Of a stretch of 25,037 bases of DNA, positions 10,857-25,035 are shown piece after piece (the first letter of the stretch is position 1; each line of letters starts with the position of its first letter). The stretch is taken from the IMG/VR virus record IMGVR_UViG_3300000930_000115, positions 1 to 25,037 of that record. One strand, written 5' to 3'. This stretch comes from a virus. The translations under genes and the position numbers were made by a program. The notes beneath the pieces were generated by a model. It searched no databases, was not told the DNA's origin, and worked only from the letters and a program-made list of their open reading frames with translations.

Positions 10857-13800
10857 TTATACCTCGAACCAGCCGACAGTTGCGTCGACGTAAACTAATT
10901 GGGTTGAATTGCCCGTGGGCAGCGTGCCGTCAGCAGCTGCTGAATTTATATTTGAACTGTTTCGTCCTATTGTCACTAATGCTGCTCCTGCGTTGCTAAG
11001 TATTACTGTATCTCCCGCACTTGGACTTGCAGGTAAAGTAATTGTGAAAGGTGTAGTTGCGTGATTACAAATCAACTGGTCGCCGCTAGCTGCGGTAAAG
11101 GTTGTTGTTTTGATCAGCCATGGCGAGTAAGATCCTCCCCCTAATAATGTTCCATTAACATATAATCCTGTGGAGTTTACCTTAATTCGTTCAGTGTTAC
11201 CTGTACCAATTAATATTGTGTTTGAAAGTGCTGCTGTACCAGGGAGGTCCCCGATGATAGTATTATTACTACCCGTAGTGATATCGTCTCCAGCTCCATA
11301 ACCAATCCCTATGTTTTTAGAGCCAGTGGATTCGTATAAAGCACGGTGGCCAGAAGCTGTGTTGTTACTTCCGGTGGTGTTGCTATTTAAAGCTTGATAG
11401 CCAGTAGCTGTGTTATTAGAGCCTTCGGTGTTTCCAACTAACGCTGATCTACCAGTAGCTACATTATAGTTACCGATGGTGTTAAAATATAGCGCTGATC
11501 TGCCGAGGCCTGTGTTGCCACTGCCCGTTGTGTTAAGAGTAAGCGCTACTGTACCCACAGCTGTGTTGTCACCGCCATTGCTGTCATTTAACGTTCCATA
11601 CCCAACCGCAACAGAATTAGAAGCTGTGGAGTTATTCTCTAAAGCGCCATGCCCAAACGCAGAATTGTAGCCCCCCGAAGTGTTAGCGTATAAAGCATGG
11701 TACCCGAAAGCATGATTGTAGAAACCAGCAGTCTGGGTACTTAATGCCTCATACCCAACAGCAAGGTTTTGCTGCCCATTAGTGTTAGCATATAAAGCTC
11801 GATACCCCATAGCTTGATTAAGAACACCTGTGGTATTTGATCTTAGTGCCTGATATCCAACAGCGATCTGACCAGGTGATGTAGTAGTATTGCTGTACAA
11901 GGCTTCGTAACCAACAGCAACATTATTATCACCCGTAGTAATCGCATCCCCAGCACCATCCCCCACAAGTACATTGTAATTACCACCAGATACAATGCTG
12001 TTACCTGCGCCTGCACCCAAGACTAAGTTGCTAGTGCCCAGTGTAGACGTAATGATTTGGCCAGTAAAGGTCTTTGTACCTGCAAAGGTTTGTGTCCCTG
12101 TAGTGACAGCACCAGAGGCAGAAGCAGAAGCAGAAGGTATAACTGCATCTAATCCTGTAGAAGAATTAACGGTAGGACCAGCAGTTGTTCCAGCGGTCCA
12201 AGTGAGATTAGTATCAACATTTGCTTCAGCTCCAGAGGGGGCATGGGCGGCTTGACTGTGAGTGTATGCTGTACTACCATGGTCTCCTCTATGTGATGTA
12301 ATGGATGTTGAACCTAAAGTAACTCCTAATGTATCACCAGATGAATTTACTGTACCTATTAAACCGGCCGTACCAGCATGTGAAGCTATACTAAACACTG
12401 TTCCTGATTGAGTTATACCATTCCCATCAGTATACTCAGTATTAGGCCATGCTCTATCATATGCCGCTTTAGCTGCAGTACTAGAAGCCGAAGTGGTACT
12501 AGAAGTAGTAGATACTGAATCACTTATTGCTCTATTTGCTTCAGCAGCATTCCAATTAGTTGAGTTACCCCCAGAAGCAGTTATAACCCCAGCTGCAACT
12601 ATAGTTGCTGCAGAATAAATACCTGCGGTACCAATACCACCCTCTAATGATCCATTTTGGTGTACATATATTCCTTCACCAATATTCGCATGCTGTCCAG
12701 TACCTGCCCTTCTCCAAGCTAAACCATAATGTGAAGTTGAAGTCCAAGTGCTGCCACTGACTCCGCCCCCATCGTAGCTCGTGCCGATAGCCCATATATT
12801 CGCTCCCCAAGCACTACCAGTGCCCGCATCTACATTATACGAACCATTTAATCCATACCTCGTGGCTATTCCACCTGATACATCGATACCCGCATCTACA
12901 TTAAGATTATTGACATTAAAGTCTTGTGAGAAATCTCCGCCTATTAATGCATATGTTCCGGTGTGGTTATGGCCTGATGTTGCAAAGGCAGTAGCTTGGT
13001 TACCATCTAATAAATCGGCATCTAAGCCTGAACCTGAACCATCAACAGTTTTAATAGCAGTGAGAATTTCACTAGCTGTTTGATCTGCAGTGGCGCTTGC
13101 TTCAATAAGATCTAACTTACTACCGTCATTCGCTACATCTCGTCCGTCTACTGTACCAGCTACAATAATATTACGACCAACAGTTAAATCCCTAGAAAGG
13201 GAACTATCTCCATTTTCGTCATTAATTGTGGATGTGTTTCTTCCCGCCCAACCAGTAACCCAGTTATCGGGGGATGAATTAATCTGCATACCATTTTCGG
13301 AGTTTATATATAATATCTCCGCCGTTTGACTCGTTGCATACGAGGCAGACTCACCAACATTAATTTTTAAGTAGTTACCATTTAATGAAGTCAGATTATC
13401 AACTTTAGTAGACGTTGCATTCAGTATGCCAGTAAAGGTCTTTGCACCTGCAAAGGTTTGTGTACCTGTAGTGACAGCACCAGAGGCAGAAGCAGATGCA
13501 GAAGGTATAACTGCGTTAGCTCCTGTAGAAGAATTAACGGTAGGACCAGCAGTTGTTCCAGCGGTCCAAGTGAGATTAGTAGCAACATTTGCTTCAGCAG
13601 CATTCCAATTAGTTGAGTTACCCCCAGTAGCAGTTATAACTCCGTCAACGTCCAATGTAGTCGCTGGAGCAATTGTTCCGATGCCAACGTTGCCATCAGA
13701 GTCGATTCGCATAGCTTCGTCTAGGGTTTCATCATCTTGACTAGTAAAGAAAGCTAAATCTGCAGTAGAAATAGTATCCTCACTAGATACTCTTATTGCA

Positions 13801-16385
13801 GCTATTGATGCCCCAACTAGACTATTGCCTGGAGTTGCCCCACTATTTCCGGCTAATCTGAATTTAATTCCTACACCTTCCTCGCCTAGTTGATTAACCG
13901 AGTTACTGTCATCTCTAGAAGAAACTGTGAGAGGATAATCTATTGTTTGTGCCGCAGAAAGCTGCATACTAATATCTAACGTGGAAGTCGGGGTGGGAGT
14001 GCCGATACCAATATTACCTGTAGTATTAATTAAGAAGTCAGGATTAGTATCGTCACCAAACCAAATATAGTCTTCACCTGTTGTTCGTGTGTTGGTATCT
14101 ACATAGAGGCCCTTTCCACTTCCATTAGCTGCGGCATTGATATGTAGTTTTGCTTCTGGGTCCGTAGTACCAATACCGACATTGCCTGATGAATCAATAC
14201 GCATACGTTCTACTGGTACAATAGCTGCATCTTTAGTTCTTGCGGCGTCCGCTCCTGTATAGAACTTCATCCCGTCATCAGAAAAGGAATCTAGTTCAAT
14301 TGCGGCATAGCCATAAGTTCCTGTGAATGGGTTTAGAAACGATGCGGCAGAGGTGCTTCCTTTTAAGCCAGCACCTACTATAATAGAGGCATTACCATAT
14401 TCAGACCATATACTACTGTAGTGGTTTGTCCCAGAGGAGCCACCCCAAGCAATACCTCTACCTCCTGTGGCACTTCCTAAGTCAAGCACACCTTGCGGGG
14501 AGGCAGTACCTATACCCGCATTTCCAACAACAGATAGATCATTATTGATGCTAGTATCTTGAGAATTATTTATAGTAATGGCTGTAATGTTGTTGGTACC
14601 TATGAGCAGATTGTGTGCACTGCCTGTACCAACAAATGAATTAGCATCCTGAGCGTAAGCTTGGAATACCGAATTATTCGTTGTATCTTCTAGTCTTAGC
14701 TTAGGGCTTACAGCCTGAGTTACTCTGAGATCTTGGTTGAACTCCCATGCATCATTGGCATTACTCCAAGCAATAGTTTTATTTGTGGTACCTAACAATG
14801 TAATACCACCACCATCAGCCGTTGTATCAGACGGAGTAGTCACATTACCTATTTCAATATTTTTATCTTCTACTAGTAAATTGGTAGTATCTATAGTAGT
14901 AGTTGTACCATTAACTGTTAAGTCACCACTTAGAACTAAATTGGGGGCGTTCAGAATATTAGTACTTGGATTATAGTATAAATTAGCTGCACTGTCTTTA
15001 AAGATACTAGCACTATTTTCTGTTGCATCGCTGGCACCTGTAAATATCATTCTATAATTGCCGCTTGTACCAGTAGCTGTAATTTCTATCGTATCGGAAC
15101 TGCCAGTTGTATTCTGGTTTAATGTTGGGAATGTACAGTTAGCTAAGTCACCTGAAGTAGGGGTGCCTAGTACGGGTGTTACTAGTGTAGGGCTAGTTGC
15201 AAATACTAATGAACCAGATCCAGTTTCATCTGACATTACACTAGCTAATTCAGACGATGTTGTAGCAGCTAAAGCAGATATTTTATCAGCATCATGAATA
15301 AGTTTTTTGCCCGTGCCTTGCAAGTCTGCCGAAGTACCTACTAATACTTCACCGGAAACATCTGGATCTAGACCAAAATAAGTAGTCCTTACAGTATTCG
15401 AAAATTTAATATTAGAATTAGATGTACTAGCTCTATGCACTGTAATTGGACTTGGGCCTGACGCAAATGTTTTTACACCTGAGAAAGTCTGTGTTCCAGA
15501 TAAGTGTGCTGTATCTGTGTCAAGATATGCAGACGCAATTGCGCCACCTTGCCAGGTACCTGTTGCGATAGTACCTACGGATGTCAAACTCGATGCAGTC
15601 ACGCCACTGGCCAATGTGTTGCCAGTTAAGTTATTGGCGTTATGTGTATGCGTGTCATTACCAACTGTTGCGGCAAACGATATATTACCTGTTCCATCCC
15701 ATGCGGCACTAGTACCAGTGACGTCGCCTGTTAACTCTATTGTTCTGCCTGTTGTCCATCCATCGGCATTTGGGTGATAACCGTCATCGAACACACGGTC
15801 TGCGCCGATATACATTGTGGCTGCAGTTCCTCCAAAATCTATTCTACCGCTGGAGTTAGCTGTGACGTTTATATAAGCTGCGCCATCATACCACGCATGT
15901 CTAAAGTTAGAGGTTCCTGCAGCATCGGTCATACCATACCAATGTAATCTGGAATAGTTGGTGGCATCATCACGAGCATCCGCTCGCTGTCGCGCCGCAT
16001 CGGCTACACTTACTTGCCAATAAGAGGTCCCCAACATAGTAGGTCCATCATTAAAAGTTTTTGCACCTGAGAAAGTCTGTGTTCCAGATAAGTGTGCTGT
16101 ATCAGCATCCATATTGACTGATGGTAACACTCCAGTTACATCAGTAGTTAAATCAATCTGATTCCTAGTTATAACCTGGCCGGATATTGTTATATAATTA
16201 GGAGTTCCAGATAATGTTACGCCAGTTGAACTCCCTACCTCTACAATAGATTCGGTTCCGTCGTCTTTTTTGATATACATCTTACCATCATAGGTATTGA
16301 TGGCTACTTCACCAAGTTCTAGGCTAGACGTAGTGGGGGGTGTACCCTGCAATGCAGAGCGCTTTAATTTGATAGTTTGTGCCAT
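10857..16385 (-). CDS. Giant tail fibre / adhesin with modular repeats
   Basis: 1842 residues, no signal peptide. N-terminal module (residues 1-45, IKLKRSALQG...ELGEVAINTYDGKMYIKKDDG) is the virion-attachment type seen in fibre and baseplate proteins of T4-like marine phages. Then come: two HLSGTQTFSG-x-KTF repeats (about 95 and 295), tail-fibre segments with ADGWTTGRTIELTGDVTG (about 205), four GNxGIGTxxP motifs (about 622, 735, 793, 900), two nearly identical 57-residue blocks (930-986 and 1386-1442), a YadA-head-like repeat block (about 1456-1729) and a compact beta-rich tip (about 1750-1842). No S74 chaperone domain is visible at the end, so folding would need other help, perhaps the chaperone-like protein two genes downstream. 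GGAGG upstream of ATG 16385 supports the start. Role: receptor binding, by inference. Confidence 0.88.
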   Translation of the reverse strand: MAQTIKLKRSALQGTPPTTSSLELGEVAINTYDGKMYIKKDDGTESIVEVGSSTGVTLSGTPNYITISGQVITRNQIDLTTDVTGVLPSVNMDADTAHLSGTQTFSGAKTFNDGPTMLGTSYWQVSVADAARQRADARDDATNYSRLHWYGMTDAAGTSNFRHAWYDGAAYINVTANSSGRIDFGGTAATMYIGADRVFDDGYHPNADGWTTGRTIELTGDVTGTSAAWDGTGNISFAATVGNDTHTHNANNLTGNTLASGVTASSLTSVGTIATGTWQGGAIASAYLDTDTAHLSGTQTFSGVKTFASGPSPITVHRASTSNSNIKFSNTVRTTYFGLDPDVSGEVLVGTSADLQGTGKKLIHDADKISALAATTSSELASVMSDETGSGSLVFATSPTLVTPVLGTPTSGDLANCTFPTLNQNTTGSSDTIEITATGTSGNYRMIFTGASDATENSASIFKDSAANLYYNPSTNILNAPNLVLSGDLTVNGTTTTIDTTNLLVEDKNIEIGNVTTPSDTTADGGGITLLGTTNKTIAWSNANDAWEFNQDLRVTQAVSPKLRLEDTTNNSVFQAYAQDANSFVGTGSAHNLLIGTNNITAITINNSQDTSINNDLSVVGNAGIGTASPQGVLDLGSATGGRGIAWGGSSGTNHYSSIWSEYGNASIIVGAGLKGSTSAASFLNPFTGTYGYAAIELDSFSDDGMKFYTGADAARTKDAAIVPVERMRIDSSGNVGIGTTDPEAKLHINAAANGSGKGLYVDTNTRTTGEDYIWFGDDTNPDFLINTTGNIGIGTPTPTSTLDISMQLSAAQTIDYPLTVSSRDDSNSVNQLGEEGVGIKFRLAGNSGATPGNSLVGASIAAIRVSSEDTISTADLAFFTSQDDETLDEAMRIDSDGNVGIGTIAPATTLDVDGVITATGGNSTNWNAAEANVATNLTWTAGTTAGPTVNSSTGANAVIPSASASASGAVTTGTQTFAGAKTFTGILNATSTKVDNLTSLNGNYLKINVGESASYATSQTAEILYINSENGMQINSSPDNWVTGWAGRNTSTINDENGDSSLSRDLTVGRNIIVAGTVDGRDVANDGSKLDLIEASATADQTASEILTAIKTVDGSGSGLDADLLDGNQATAFATSGHNHTGTYALIGGDFSQDFNVNNLNVDAGIDVSGGIATRYGLNGSYNVDAGTGSAWGANIWAIGTSYDGGGVSGSTWTSTSHYGLAWRRAGTGQHANIGEGIYVHQNGSLEGGIGTAGIYSAATIVAAGVITASGGNSTNWNAAEANRAISDSVSTTSSTTSASSTAAKAAYDRAWPNTEYTDGNGITQSGTVFSIASHAGTAGLIGTVNSSGDTLGVTLGSTSITSHRGDHGSTAYTHSQAAHAPSGAEANVDTNLTWTAGTTAGPTVNSSTGLDAVIPSASASASGAVTTGTQTFAGTKTFTGQIITSTLGTSNLVLGAGAGNSIVSGGNYNVLVGDGAGDAITTGDNNVAVGYEALYSNTTTSPGQIAVGYQALRSNTTGVLNQAMGYRALYANTNGQQNLAVGYEALSTQTAGFYNHAFGYHALYANTSGGYNSAFGHGALENNSTASNSVAVGYGTLNDSNGGDNTAVGTVALTLNTTGSGNTGLGRSALYFNTIGNYNVATGRSALVGNTEGSNNTATGYQALNSNTTGSNNTASGHRALYESTGSKNIGIGYGAGDDITTGSNNTIIGDLPGTAALSNTILIGTGNTERIKVNSTGLYVNGTLLGGGSYSPWLIKTTTFTAASGDQLICNHATTPFTITLPASPSAGDTVILSNAGAALVTIGRNSSNINSAAADGTLPTGNSTQLVYVDATVGWFEV
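11200..12025 (-). repeat. YadA-head-like repeat block inside the giant fibre
   Basis: The encoded protein contains about a dozen units of roughly 16-22 residues following the pattern N-x-A-x-G-Y-x-A-L-x-x-N-T-x-G (for example VAVGYEALYSN, QAMGYRALYAN, TASGHRALYES). This periodic Ala/Gly-x-Gly pattern forms the left-handed beta-roll of YadA/Hia-type trimeric adhesin heads, so the fibre is probably trimeric here. Units are diverged at DNA level, so the block is old and not a recent expansion. Confidence 0.75.
12060..12230 (-). repeat. 171-bp direct repeat, copy 1
   Basis: Matches 13428-13598 over the same length with about nine differences by eye (about 95% identity). It encodes the block TNLTWTAGTTAGPTVNSS...AVIPSASASASGAVTTGTQTFAG-x-KTFTG. 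Both copies are in the same frame of the giant fibre gene. Confidence 0.9.
12534..12587 (-). repeat. 54-bp direct repeat, copy 1
   Basis: Differs from 13587-13640 by one base. Encodes GGNSTNWNAAEAN. The other copy overlaps the 171-bp repeat copy 2 by 12 bases, so the two repeats are joined there but separated here by about 300 bases. Confidence 0.88.
13428..13598 (-). repeat. 171-bp direct repeat, copy 2
   Basis: Second copy of the repeat at 12060-12230, 1368 bases away in the same gene and frame. Length is preserved exactly between copies and most differences sit in one five-codon patch (GANAV versus GLDAV). Confidence 0.9.
13587..13640 (-). repeat. 54-bp direct repeat, copy 2
   Basis: Second copy of the GGNSTNWNAAEAN-coding segment at 12534-12587, with a single mismatch. 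Confidence 0.88.
15476..15515 (-). repeat. 40-bp perfect direct repeat, copy 1
   Basis: Identical to 16064-16103. Encodes the DTAHLSGTQTFSG module of the giant fibre. The flanking KTF residues are also conserved, with silent and coding changes outside the 40 bases. Confidence 0.92.
16064..16103 (-). repeat. 40-bp perfect direct repeat, copy 2
   Basis: Second identical copy of the 40-base segment at 15476-15515, encoding the first DTAHLSGTQTFSG module near the N-terminus of the giant fibre. Confidence 0.92.
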
Positions 16386-19570: not shown

Positions 19571-21886
19571 TTATGGGTTATTATACACCGGGTCACCATC
19601 CTGGGTTATTGGAATAGTAACATTTAACCCAGCAAATGACACACCCTCTCTTCTAGTTATACCTTTATCTAAAGTTATAACAACTATAGTTCCTGAGTTT
19701 TCAACAGTGGAGAACTCAAAATCCCCTGAAGAGGATGTTGTAGAATTTATTACGTTATCTGTAGGTAGTGGTCCATCAAATACATAGATTGTGCTACCAT
19801 TTTCAATACCCGTAATAGTAACATTATTTGTGTTGACAATAGTGATAGTACCACCGTAAGGAACAATACACTTAGACTGTGTAATATTACCTCCGGCATT
19901 AATTACAGTCAGAGTTTCACCAGCAGTTCCTAAGAATAAAATGTGTACTGAAGCACGATCATCGAACGTTACGTTAGACATAGTTAGAGTAAAGTTACCT
20001 CCACCCGTTACTTTTTCAACCAAAACTCCCGCAGGAACATCTCCATAAGCGGTATCATCTATGTTCGCTTCCACGAATGCTTGCATATTAAGTGTCGAGT
20101 CGGTGTAAACATCCTCTACTGCCAGAACACCTTTATTAAAAAACGTTGTTTTTAATTCAGCGCCTGTCGGTGGATCCCCTGAAGTTCTTCCGTTAGAACC
20201 TTCACAATATGTTCCCCAAAAATTAAACATAGAGTTTAGTGCGGCGGGGTAGTTAATGTCTGTACCTCCCGTATCTAGGTTACCGTTACTAGCCCCATAC
20301 CCATAGTCACCACTATGTGACGATTGGTTAGTCACGTTCTGAATAGTGCCGCCAGATACTTCGAGAGAATCAATAGTCTGTTCGATTCCGTCAATAAAGC
20401 ACTTAACGAAGTTGTTGCCCGTTCCTAATGTGAAGTCAAACTGTACTGCTATGTGATATGTCCTGTTAGGCGACAGGTTAAAGTTACTAATTGCTTGTGT
20501 ACCAATACCACCATCTTGATTACTATCGGCATAGTTCGCTAACAACCTTCCACCAAAACCAAGCGCAAGGTAAATATTGTTTACACCACCCCCCTCTTCA
20601 AAGAAAAGAGTAGGTGTGCTGTACTGGTTGGGGAACCTTATCCAACCGAAGATTAGACGTTCGCCATGCAAAACTGTGATATTAGTATAACTACCATTAG
20701 AAATCTCTATTTTCGCAGAAGTAGTATTAGGTATCCAAGATTCTGATGTATCTCTACATAATCCTGTACCTGTATAGGTTTCAGTTCCGTTTGATTGAGT
20801 TGCATTGAATCCATTATAGACATCTCGTATGTTGGAAGATAGTATATGAAGAATATCGGGTTGTCTTCCTCCTATATCTGTTTCGATAGAGTCTAGGTAA
20901 GATACTCTACCAAAACTTGCAGGAATAGAACCTTGTGCAGTCGCACCATCATTAGTAACGAATACGTATAAATCGCCTTGTGGAAGATAGGTTGCCCCAG
21001 AATTACGAACAAAATTGAAAGTGATCGATTGCCCGTTAACATTCCAGTTCGTGACCGTTTGAGTTACCTTAGTTGCGGCCGCATAAGTTACACTATCGCC
21101 AATCTCTACTGTTCCTTGAACTGCACCGAAATTTACACCCGTAAGTGTGATGCCAGTTTGCCCAATGTCTAGAGTACTATCAGATATAGTATCCACTGAG
21201 AGAGCAGTAGGATCTTCATTTAAAGCAATCCAGAAACCGACATAGGGAGTACTACCCCCCGAAGTTACAGCCGTAGGTGTCGCACCCATACTTCCTGCGG
21301 TAGTTTGTAAGTAGTCAGCAAATGCACCAGAAGAGGATCCTGTACCATTGCCAGGAGGACCACCAACATTATCCGCTCTTTCGTTAAAGGTTCCCGTACC
21401 GGTGGGCCAAGAAGTGATAACTGCTGCACTAGTATTGCCAGATTCTAGTGCTAGAAACCCCACCACCATACAGTCATCTGTAGTTGGTGTAAAGTTTGTG
21501 GGTAAAATAAGATTAGTACCAGCAGTATTATTTGAATCAACAGCACTTGAGTCTATTGGATTGCTTGTAAGAACTCCGTCATATACCGCAGCAAATGCAA
21601 CAGCTCTTTCAGCATTAGCTAGTGTAATTGTTTGAGTAGTGTCATCTCCTGATTGCCACACTCGATAATACACAGAACCACTGTTAGAACCACCAGCATC
21701 TACTTGTGGTGCGTAAAGTTGAGTCCATATATTAGGAACTTCAAATGTAGGTGTTCCTTGGGCAGCAGTACCATCACTAGACAACAATAGTAATACAAAC
21801 TGACCTACATTAGCAGTTATATTGAGATTCGAAGTAAGGTCGTTATCAAATCCTGTAGAAGAAAAATTGTTAAATGAAACTGCCAT
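19571..21886 (-). CDS. Large adhesin: N-terminal beta domain, TIG-like domain, lectin-like domain
   Basis: 771 residues. Residues 1-220 form a beta-rich domain of unknown family (FVLLLLSSDGT, YYRVWQSGDDTTQTITL, FLALESGNT). Residues about 225-320 are an IPT/TIG-like immunoglobulin fold (DIGQTGITLTGVNFGAVQGTVEIG ... VTNDG). About 355-565 looks like a concanavalin/LamG-like jelly roll (LIFGWIRFPNQY, YHIAVQFDF, NNFVKCFIDGIEQ, FNFWGTYCEG), a fold that binds sugars or proteins. The last 170 residues, ending DPVYNNP, match the end of the 523-aa neighbour. Likely a cell-surface-binding virion protein. It starts within the stop of the 523-aa gene (TAATG). The promoter at 19503-19531 follows its end. 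Confidence 0.8.
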   Translation of the reverse strand: MAVSFNNFSSTGFDNDLTSNLNITANVGQFVLLLLSSDGTAAQGTPTFEVPNIWTQLYAPQVDAGGSNSGSVYYRVWQSGDDTTQTITLANAERAVAFAAVYDGVLTSNPIDSSAVDSNNTAGTNLILPTNFTPTTDDCMVVGFLALESGNTSAAVITSWPTGTGTFNERADNVGGPPGNGTGSSSGAFADYLQTTAGSMGATPTAVTSGGSTPYVGFWIALNEDPTALSVDTISDSTLDIGQTGITLTGVNFGAVQGTVEIGDSVTYAAATKVTQTVTNWNVNGQSITFNFVRNSGATYLPQGDLYVFVTNDGATAQGSIPASFGRVSYLDSIETDIGGRQPDILHILSSNIRDVYNGFNATQSNGTETYTGTGLCRDTSESWIPNTTSAKIEISNGSYTNITVLHGERLIFGWIRFPNQYSTPTLFFEEGGGVNNIYLALGFGGRLLANYADSNQDGGIGTQAISNFNLSPNRTYHIAVQFDFTLGTGNNFVKCFIDGIEQTIDSLEVSGGTIQNVTNQSSHSGDYGYGASNGNLDTGGTDINYPAALNSMFNFWGTYCEGSNGRTSGDPPTGAELKTTFFNKGVLAVEDVYTDSTLNMQAFVEANIDDTAYGDVPAGVLVEKVTGGGNFTLTMSNVTFDDRASVHILFLGTAGETLTVINAGGNITQSKCIVPYGGTITIVNTNNVTITGIENGSTIYVFDGPLPTDNVINSTTSSSGDFEFSTVENSGTIVVITLDKGITRREGVSFAGLNVTIPITQDGDPVYNNP

Positions 21887-23457
21887 TATGGATTCTCATA
21901 TACTCTGTCAAAAAATTGATCAACTTGAAAGGAAAAATCCTGTGACACTCCTAAGTTATATATTTCTCTTATTTTAAAATCGACACTAACAATTCTAACA
22001 TCTACAGTCCCGTTAGGAATACTGGCAACGAAATCACCACTAGTGTTTTCTATTCCATCTAATTCTGTTATAGTACCCGCCTCAAATATTCGTATCTCTG
22101 TATTGTTTTCTGCACCTGTAAACGTCACGTTGAAATTGTTAATGATGTTAACTGAACCCCCAGATGTGGATATAAAGGTTACTGCATTAGAAGTTCCGTT
22201 GTTTGTAAAGTTAACGGTACCTGTGCCAGTATAAACAATATCTACACTTAATTTATCGTCAAATATTATGTTGGTAGCAGTAAGATTAATTGTGCCGTTA
22301 CCCGTGATTATAATACCTGCGGGAACTGTATTAGCACTTCCTATGGTACTGTTATTTAGTGCATTCAGTCCAGTCTGATCTGTAATAGTATCGTTAGACA
22401 ATGTACCTCTACCAAACATATCAACTCGTGTCTCTGCTTCGTTGGGTAGATAGTCTCCACTCCACATCCCCCAGGAAGAGAAATTCATATTAGTTGAGGA
22501 GGCTAGGGTAAGTGCCTCTCCTCCGATACCTGTACCAGCTCGATCTGTCCCGAACTCGATCTGAGAACGTGCGGGTAATGTGCCTATATCAGAAAAGTCA
22601 CTGCTATTGAGACTTGTAGTCACAGGTAGTCCATCTAAGGTTGCCTCAAACTTTCCTGTTCCAGAATCAAACTTTGCCATAACATGATATGGACGAGCAA
22701 TGTCTATAATCACGTCCGAATAAAATTGGAGTGAAGTTGTGGAAGTAGAACAACCAAATAAAAGCGTATTTCCGTATCCTAGTAGTATTTGAAATTGTTC
22801 GGTCGTGTCATACTCAGAGAATATAATACAAGGTGGTCCTTGAATTGAACTAACTTGAAACCATCCCGCAACGCAATGAATAGTTGCTTGGTCGCCAATT
22901 GTAGCCACACCAGTAGGCGCGTCCCAATGGTCTGTTCGAGCATCAGTAAGACCACTGTTGCCTAAAAACTGACAAATTTGAGTAGCGGCATATGTTGTGC
23001 CAGTTGCCGTCAGATCTTGAGTACCCACTGCATCTGTAATGGAATTATTAAATGTCCAATAGTGATCTGCATCTAATAAATTGGACCCACCTGAGTTAGA
23101 ATATACCCCTCTATAATCTGTAGGTTGCCCTGCGTAGTTTAAGGTGAAGGTATATAAATTTGTTTTTGTTCCGTCATCTATAGTTACCACAACATAATTG
23201 GTTCCCGAAGGAAGGCCCCCACCGCACATATTCACTACAATAGAGGTGGAGCTCCAACTTTGAATAGTAAGTTTAGCTTTTACGGTAGCACTATCATATG
23301 TGGCGTTATTTACAATCTCGACGAAACCATTACCTTGAGCAGCACCAAAACCTACTCCAGTAATAGTAATACCATCTTCATTTGTATCATGACTTTCGTC
23401 TCCAAAATCAGTAATAGAGAGAGCGAGTAAAGTAAGATTAAAAGCATAGCCTGCCAT
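21886..23457 (-). CDS. Adhesin with TIG-like and lectin-like domains, paralogue of the 771-aa protein
   Basis: 523 residues: an IPT/TIG-like domain (about 10-110; ITITGVGFGAAQGNGFVEI, NYVVVTIDDG), a concanavalin/LamG-like domain (about 125-350; HYWTFNNSITDAVG, AGWFQVSS, YHVMAKFDSGTGKFEATLDGLP) and a C-terminal beta domain (about 375-523) ending DRVYENP, shared with the 771-aa protein. The DNA start is an ATG directly after the stop of the TIG-repeat gene, in the same frame; AGGTGAGG about nine bases upstream can serve as ribosome site. Likely role: recognition of host surface or capsule sugars, inferred from domain type. It lacks the extra N-terminal 220 residues of its neighbour. Confidence 0.8.
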   Translation of the reverse strand: MAGYAFNLTLLALSITDFGDESHDTNEDGITITGVGFGAAQGNGFVEIVNNATYDSATVKAKLTIQSWSSTSIVVNMCGGGLPSGTNYVVVTIDDGTKTNLYTFTLNYAGQPTDYRGVYSNSGGSNLLDADHYWTFNNSITDAVGTQDLTATGTTYAATQICQFLGNSGLTDARTDHWDAPTGVATIGDQATIHCVAGWFQVSSIQGPPCIIFSEYDTTEQFQILLGYGNTLLFGCSTSTTSLQFYSDVIIDIARPYHVMAKFDSGTGKFEATLDGLPVTTSLNSSDFSDIGTLPARSQIEFGTDRAGTGIGGEALTLASSTNMNFSSWGMWSGDYLPNEAETRVDMFGRGTLSNDTITDQTGLNALNNSTIGSANTVPAGIIITGNGTINLTATNIIFDDKLSVDIVYTGTGTVNFTNNGTSNAVTFISTSGGSVNIINNFNVTFTGAENNTEIRIFEAGTITELDGIENTSGDFVASIPNGTVDVRIVSVDFKIREIYNLGVSQDFSFQVDQFFDRVYENP

Positions 23458-25035
23458 TTAACTCACCTCACCTGTCGCATTCGTTACGAAAATGTAATTG
23501 GTACCTGCCGTTAAACCGGAACTATCATCTAAGTTAAATATGATTTGACTATCATTCCAGGTTGTAGTTGTTTGCTCGTTCTTAACCGTTGCGCTTACAT
23601 AAGTAGAGTTGTTACATACTTCTATTTTGCCAGTACTTTTAGGGTTTCTGAAATCCGACCCATTTAGAACAATGGCTGTATCACCTACAGTAATTTCTGC
23701 ATTCTGAGCCCCACCATCTCCATCTAGATTTGAGATACCAGGAACTACTGAAGCGAGTGTAACCGCTAAACCGTTTGTGTTTACACCACCATCTGAGTTA
23801 GTGACATAAGCATAAACAGTCCCAGTAGACAATGCGCCTCTTAATGCACTGACTGTGATAGAGGTTTGTCCACCCCAAGTTGTTACTGTTTGTTCAACTT
23901 TAGTGCCAGAACCAGCATAGGTACTGGCATTACCCAATTCAACTTTTGCTGGTCCTACGTCGGCGGCACCAAAATCAAGTCCTACTACTGCGATTCCAGT
24001 GGTATCACCAAATATCTGTGTGCCTCCATTAAAAGAAGACACAGTGGGATTGACTGCAACCAGTGTGATTGTTTGTTGGTCTCTGCCACCAGAATCGTTA
24101 GTAACATAAAGATACAGAAAAGTACCAACAGATAGACCAGTGCGTACTAAGTCGAATGATATAGAAGTGTCGCTGTTCCAAGTGTCTATCGTTTGTTCTA
24201 CAAGTACACCCGCTCCATAGGTACTGTTGGGAGAGATCTCTATTTTACCAGTACCCTGTGAGGTTTGAAATCCGGTACCTGTAATTGTAATTCCTAACTG
24301 ACCAACTAATAGACTGTCATCACCATCAACATTAGTAATAGATACGGGTTGCTGAACAGATATAGATAATGCAGCCGAAGATACGTTGTCGCCATTATAA
24401 ACTCTTGCGAAGTACGTGCCTGGAAAACTAAGGCCACCTTCAGTAAGATCAAATTGAATACTCTGATCTGCCCACGTGTCAATGGACTGGGTGACTCTCG
24501 TTCCACCAGTTGCTGCGGAAGTTGTTGCGAGTTCTACAAAACCTGTTCCTGGTCCATCTGTTTGGTTTGGATAGAATCCATCACCGGCTATAACAATATT
24601 TGTTTGGTTGATTTGTAGTGCATCGTCACCATCGATGTTAGTAATCGAAGGTGTTTCTGCTGTAAGAGTAATCGGAAACGCAGTAGTGTTTTGTGCACCA
24701 GTACTGTCTGTTACCCAAACATAGTTTGTACCCGCAGATAACCCTGTTCGAACAACATCAAACAGAATACTAGTAACTGACGCCCAACTATTAATGGTTT
24801 GCAGTACTAATCCACCAGCGGCATAAGTGTTATTTGGCGATATTTCTACTTTAGCAGAACCAGTTTGCGTACCAAAACTAGAACCTGTGATAACTACAGC
24901 GGTTTGCTGAACACCAATATTCTCATCAGTGTCAATATCTGTAATAATAGGATTAGCAGCAAGGGCTTGAGTTGTAATAGTGGTTTCACTAGGACTAGAC
25001 GAACAAACTTCATCATCCGAATCAAGTACCCGAAA
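23458..25035 (-). CDS. Tandem IPT/TIG-repeat virion protein (5' end outside window)
   Basis: The frame is open without a stop from the right window edge to 23458, giving 525 residues of a longer protein; internal GTG at 24042 is not a credible start because the repeat pattern continues upstream of it. Five consecutive units of about 85-100 residues share the plan: P-x-I-T-x-[IV]-D-G-D-D, TGITITG-x-x-F, K-[VI]-E-[IL]-x-x-N-x-T-Y, Q-T-[IV]-x-x-W, TGLS-x-GT-x-[YV]-x-[YW]-V-T-[ND]-x-x-G. This is an IPT/TIG-like immunoglobulin repeat. Such arrays form extended stalks on phage tails and bind carbohydrates. The last unit ends abruptly at its final strand (TNATGEVS), with the remaining strand apparently encoded by the next gene. 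Confidence 0.82.
   Translation of the reverse strand, partial: FRVLDSDDEVCSSSPSETTITTQALAANPIITDIDTDENIGVQQTAVVITGSSFGTQTGSAKVEISPNNTYAAGGLVLQTINSWASVTSILFDVVRTGLSAGTNYVWVTDSTGAQNTTAFPITLTAETPSITNIDGDDALQINQTNIVIAGDGFYPNQTDGPGTGFVELATTSAATGGTRVTQSIDTWADQSIQFDLTEGGLSFPGTYFARVYNGDNVSSAALSISVQQPVSITNVDGDDSLLVGQLGITITGTGFQTSQGTGKIEISPNSTYGAGVLVEQTIDTWNSDTSISFDLVRTGLSVGTFLYLYVTNDSGGRDQQTITLVAVNPTVSSFNGGTQIFGDTTGIAVVGLDFGAADVGPAKVELGNASTYAGSGTKVEQTVTTWGGQTSITVSALRGALSTGTVYAYVTNSDGGVNTNGLAVTLASVVPGISNLDGDGGAQNAEITVGDTAIVLNGSDFRNPKSTGKIEVCNNSTYVSATVKNEQTTTTWNDSQIIFNLDDSSGLTAGTNYIFVTNATGEVS

Follow-up and report, generated by a model that had tools for sequence, protein, structure and literature searches.

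In the window, the whole 25,037-nt stretch of viral DNA analysed here, the boundary between two consecutive minus-strand genes falls inside the F–G hairpin of the fifth of six TIG-like domains. We give not quite an even chance to the fuller reading, that the two chains are joined through this split domain (R5) in the style of donor-strand complementation.

We hypothesize that one mRNA yields two proteins by tightly coupled translation, by way of a TAA stop, the Shine–Dalgarno (SD) sequence GAGGTGA and an ATG. The product of gene 1 would consist of an N-terminal domain, four complete TIG domains and a fifth without its G strand, and that of gene 2 of a strand-like arm, a sixth TIG domain, a lectin-like (LamG/ConA-type) domain and a beta-rich, tagged C-terminal region. 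The chains would then reassemble end to end, the gene 2 arm completing the fifth domain of gene 1, with the array anchored via gene 2. What we infer is that the products are separate and, most of all, that a strand is donated.

The gene boundary and its translation signals

Gene 1 is a frame of 525 aa in the ORF list and translation, open at the contig end. As the original prediction had it, and as the ORFs and translations confirm, its stop is followed in the same frame by the ATG of the 523-aa gene 2 (23457..23455) as the very next codon; taking the TAA as Q gives an uninterrupted frame of 1,049 residues. The gene 2 stop is overlapped by the start of gene 3 as TAATG, and since abutting or overlapping neighbours are routine here, in-frame adjacency is by itself unremarkable. 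In L005, a sibling contig (97% identical in protein over 155 codons), gene 1 has 158 further N-terminal residues, which brings its complete length to at least 683 aa. Gene 1 there sits behind portal-like and collagen-like genes, a tailed-phage structural module, and the contig stops short of the junction. L005 was the sole match to the gene 1 N-terminus as a query, and an exact-flank search for further copies of the junction in the collections returned none; a single metagenomic contig (a 25 kb virus record) shows the junction, and gene 1 is incomplete in it.

The right half of the window carries structural genes on the minus strand. At 10857-16385, also on the minus strand, a tail-fibre-like protein of 1,842 aa is encoded. 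It has internal segments that are near-identical (EANVATNLTWTAGTTAGPTVNSSTG / EANVDTNLTWTAGTTAGPTVNSSTG ... SASASASGAVTTGTQTFAG), and its N-terminus, IKLKRS, resembles the IQIKRS of a neighbouring 572-aa protein.

The ribosome site AGGTGAGG, predicted just upstream of gene 2, is present. Its best match to the 16S tail, GAGGTGA, is 7 nt long, ends 5 nt before the gene 2 ATG and is the joint longest SD match before any gene in the window, where 10 of 7,250 internal codons have an SD of comparable length and spacing. Because this 7-base SD sits 5 bases before the ATG, separate, coupled cistrons are strongly favoured over read-through or a new nonsense mutation, and we consider two cistrons with coupled initiation very probable. 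The suggestion that the split is kept with a ribosome site of its own is thereby supported as far as a maintained two-gene split is concerned (7-nt SD, 5-nt spacing); that the genes once formed, or still form, one adhesin of over 1000 residues is possible.

Elsewhere in the window, the only internal ATG with a 7-nt SD is found at about 1193 on the plus strand, in frame within the ORF 1043-1693 and with AAGGAGG 4 nt upstream. The product of this ORF looks, by eye, like a single-stranded DNA-binding protein.

Table 1. Positions in the window of the genes, repeats and signals around the junction
Feature	Position	Strand	Evidence
Gene 1: TIG/Ig-like array protein, R1-R4 complete, R5 cut	23458..25035	-	ORF, translation, repeats
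TIG-like repeat R1	24652..24951	-	repeat alignment, HMM match
TIG-like repeat R2	24346..24651	-	repeat alignment, HMM match
TIG-like repeat R3	24049..24345	-	repeat alignment, HMM match
TIG-like repeat R4	23743..24048	-	repeat alignment, HMM match
R5, part encoded by gene 1, ending ...FVTNATGEVS after the F strand, without G strand	23461..23742	-	profile match
Shine-Dalgarno GAGGTGA, within the final codons of gene 1	23463..23469	-	16S tail match
TAA stop of gene 1, ATG immediately next	23458..23460	-	sequence
N-terminal arm of gene 2, MAGYAFNLTLLA, candidate G strand of R5	23422..23457	-	mixed tests
TIG-like repeat R6, gene 2	23128..23421	-	HMM 2e-32
Gene 2, 523 aa: arm, R6, LamG-like domain, C-terminal beta region, ending DRVYENP	21886..23457	-	
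Gene 3, 771 aa: N-domain, one TIG, LamG-like domain, C-terminal region, ending DPVYNNP	19571..21886	-	
C-terminal tag ends of gene 2 (DRVYENP) and gene 3 (DPVYNNP)	21886-21909 and 19571-19594	-	

The cut fifth domain and its candidate strand

Six TIG-like units of about 100 residues each extend across both genes, R1 to R4 and the cut R5 in gene 1 and R6 in gene 2. Their pairwise identities lie between 29 and 51% at the amino acid level, with no closest pair spanning the boundary, and on this comparison they are old repeats, about equally diverged. A recent tandem duplication across the boundary was considered and rejected: R5 and R6 (36% protein and 47% DNA identity) are no closer than other pairs. 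A domain tree had two supported forks, too little signal to place R6 with or without the array. Neither gene 1 nor gene 2 matched Pfam, its TIG/IPT model included, at thresholds up to E = 10, and PDB sequence searches gave nothing useful. AlphaFold modelled the stretch from R5 to R6, read through, as two Ig-like domains (mean pLDDT 79.8), and Foldseek matched this model to tandem Ig/FN3-like proteins of the PDB and to NFAT; the name TIG-like is therefore justified by fold and not by Pfam.

The cut in the F–G hairpin ends gene 1 about 10 residues before the end of the domain. Along the 98 positions of the HMM profile, R5 can be followed to position 87, where gene 1 stops; its siblings in the array reach 95-97. 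From the end of the F strand (VTN) to the next A strand the array has 17-20 residues; across the boundary there are 20 codons, the stop included, and the F–G loop of R5 is about three codons longer than in the intact repeats. The length of the missing strand is filled by the first 12 residues of gene 2, ahead of R6. As judged from the sequence, R5 is without a G strand, which is the state of an acceptor in donor-strand complementation.

The likeness of the gene 2 arm to a G strand is weak (P 0.01-0.04 in two tests, two others without signal). Adding the arm brought no gain to the TIG profile HMM, and an ungapped anchored score left it at chance (P 0.36-0.54 against shuffles). With a gapped pairwise score against the six true linkers, the arm ranked above 96% of shuffles (P = 0.036) and, in comparison with other phage N-termini, beat 89 of 90 (P = 0.011), so that it scores within the range seen for true inter-repeat linkers. 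The arm also has the strand motif of the array (hydrophobic-x-hydrophobic-T/S-L/V), which was defined post hoc and is present in 4 of 221 other N-termini. As to the original prediction of one continuous repeat junction, the match in sequence is borderline, with a gapped signal and null HMM and ungapped results.

In the AlphaFold model of fused R5-R6, YAFNLT of gene 2 forms the last strand of R5; since the input alignment had already placed the G strands of the repeats over the arm and joined the chains, this model is no independent proof of the strand. When gene 2 is modelled alone, the arm has low confidence, confounded by poor alignment at the arm. The structure predictions were made from shallow alignments of 4 and 13 sequences. 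On these data, it is plausible that the chains are joined through the split fifth domain and that the arm is the donor strand, our estimates running from unlikely to somewhat short of even.

A lone TIG-like domain at L015 155-475 (+) has an uninterrupted F–G region, TNATGDRNPVGFPFTLNL, close to the junction read through (TNATGEVS*MAGYAFNLTL).

Relatives, the C-terminal tag and alternative explanations

Several protein and profile queries recovered the family of genes 2 and 3 at 17 distinct loci, one of them in Maribacter phage Panino; P0002 as the sole query had no match. All follow one plan: a SHORT gene of 401-433 aa that begins at the LamG-like domain, followed by a LONG gene (N-domain, one TIG, LamG), the latter cut by the contig end in a few fragments. 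SHORT has its own start in 17 of 17 relatives, from overlapping the upstream gene to about 90 nt behind it, and in none of the 17 does it carry an N-terminal TIG or follow an upstream TIG array. Gene 3 is the LONG orthologue and gene 2 the SHORT orthologue (E 8e-171 against a SHORT profile that includes gene 2), the only SHORT member with an N-terminal TIG. Because the 17 relatives start separately and without TIG, the start codon before the SHORT gene is ancestral and the array an addition in the lineage of the window. No fused or intermediate form of TIG array and SHORT was found among the relatives and collections searched; a fused ancestor is possible. The comparison of fused and split forms proposed at the outset therefore gives separate genes in all relatives, without the array upstream. 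Separate genes in relatives and complete folds in each protein had been named as signs against a split adhesin; the former are what we find, but gene 1 appears to end on an incomplete domain.

The LamG/ConA-like lectin domain of gene 2 was recognized by profile or fold match: the gene 2 model resembles laminin G, pentraxin and lectin domains, and gene 2 is homologous, by sequence comparison, to the LONG protein of L008, which matches Laminin_G_3 (PF13385) just above the cut-off. The window's own SHORT and LONG members had no PHROG match. The lectin-like pair is conserved in diverse tailed phages, including the podovirus Panino, an example being L004 7085-10503.

As neighbouring virion proteins, SHORT, LONG and a non-homologous MALITDPDD-type protein that often precedes or follows them have a short C-terminal tag in common. 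Compared at the C-termini in L004, L006, L008, L018, L019, L021, L023-L025 and L029-L032, it varies as a set between phages, being [DE]RxYxN[PA] in most, ETNx in L023/L024/L028 and xxDE in L011/L031/L032. Its appearance suggests a shared tail for docking or assembly. Genes 2 and 3 and most relatives have it, whereas it is absent from gene 1. Should the tag serve for docking, gene 1 would depend on gene 2 as its carrier, consistent with a joint between the chains, and may reach the virion in this way.

Alternatively, and we regard this as possible if on balance doubtful, domain shuffling or boundary drift may have recombined the array beside a short lectin gene, the breakpoint falling by chance in a TIG hairpin, so that truncated R5 and arm would be leftovers without a joint function and the two proteins would work separately. 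The separate, TIG-free starts of the 17 relatives speak for an array added in this way, as do the HMM and ungapped tests, which miss the arm, and non-homologous recombination of Ig-like domains is the picture suggested for phages (PMC5009743). However, the frame and the spacing across the boundary match the array, the arm is strand-like in the gapped test and by its motif, and gene 1 does not have the tag of its neighbours. The same continuity of frame and repeat spacing would follow from fission of a single TIG-array/lectin adhesin of about 1,200 residues, the split being now fixed, and TIG is indeed fused directly to LamG in gene 3 and in the complete LONG genes of relatives. To fission we give a small chance, since no fused TIG-array form was found, the boundary precedes the SHORT gene in every relative and the repeats, old as they are, hold no record of a recent fused state; it concerns history only and is compatible with complementation or with shuffling.

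Read-through and a recent nonsense change, both raised in the original prediction, are disfavoured by the TAA, by the strong SD in place and by the longer F–G loop. Programmed read-through to a minor long fibre could use a frame that is open past the stop, but that stop is TAA, normally the least leaky one, and it coincides with a strong SD and an ATG, which serve re-initiation. Phages do extend proteins with Ig-like domains by recoding, although the phage cases in the review PMC5009743 are frameshifts and not TAA read-through, and we give this explanation scarcely any chance. That the protein is normally fused, and the stop a recent nonsense change, a strain variant or an assembly error, is compatible with a junction seen in one metagenomic contig, with no other copy by exact-flank search and a sibling that ends before it. 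The chance of this is nevertheless very small: along with the stop, a single base error would not bring in a 7-nt SD at ideal spacing, an ATG next to the stop and a loop some three codons longer.

Significance and comparison with known systems

If the two chains do complete one domain, this would be a simple co-translational means of linking separate adhesins end to end that needs no covalent bond, no chaperone and no trimeric coiled coil; it would also offer a natural template for joining proteins by a split Ig domain. If they do not, the junction still illustrates how phages extend adhesins via Ig-like domains at existing gene boundaries. We found no description of a split-Ig or donor-strand joint in phage tails in the open-access literature. 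Stated in full, that a tailed phage has here a natural split Ig domain, with strands A–F in gene 1 and a G strand donor arm in gene 2, and that heterotypic complementation joins the co-translated chains into one fibre, the proposal is unlikely.

Ig-like domains on the virion proteins of tailed phages were described by Fraser et al. 2006 (cited in PMC5009743). In that review, these domains, like the ones here, are found on virion proteins, moved between genes by recombination and sometimes expressed across a frame interruption. The known recoding cases differ in that one ribosome makes an extended protein by a -1 or +1 frameshift, whereas the stop, SD and start here would result in two proteins, divided within a domain. 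Panino (PP540027.1, PANI_CDS0099/0098) and the 16 other loci share the SHORT/LONG order and the abutting starts and stops, and the tag type is the same as in Panino, but the N-terminal TIG on SHORT and the upstream TIG-array gene occur only in the window. In structure, the best Foldseek match of the R5-R6 model is the Bacteroides SGBP-B (6e9b, E 2e-8), a tandem Ig-like surface glycan-binding protein; as this is a cellular surface protein and the TM-score is only 0.36, a fold is shared and not kinship.

In chaperone-usher pili, the next subunit uses its N-terminal extension to supply the G strand that an Ig-like domain is missing. The window has no chaperone, usher or pilin, but a phage TIG array with a single heterotypic joint, at which strand donation is proposed only. 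By analogy, the logic that we propose is alike: an Ig-like domain would be completed by the N-terminal arm of the next chain.
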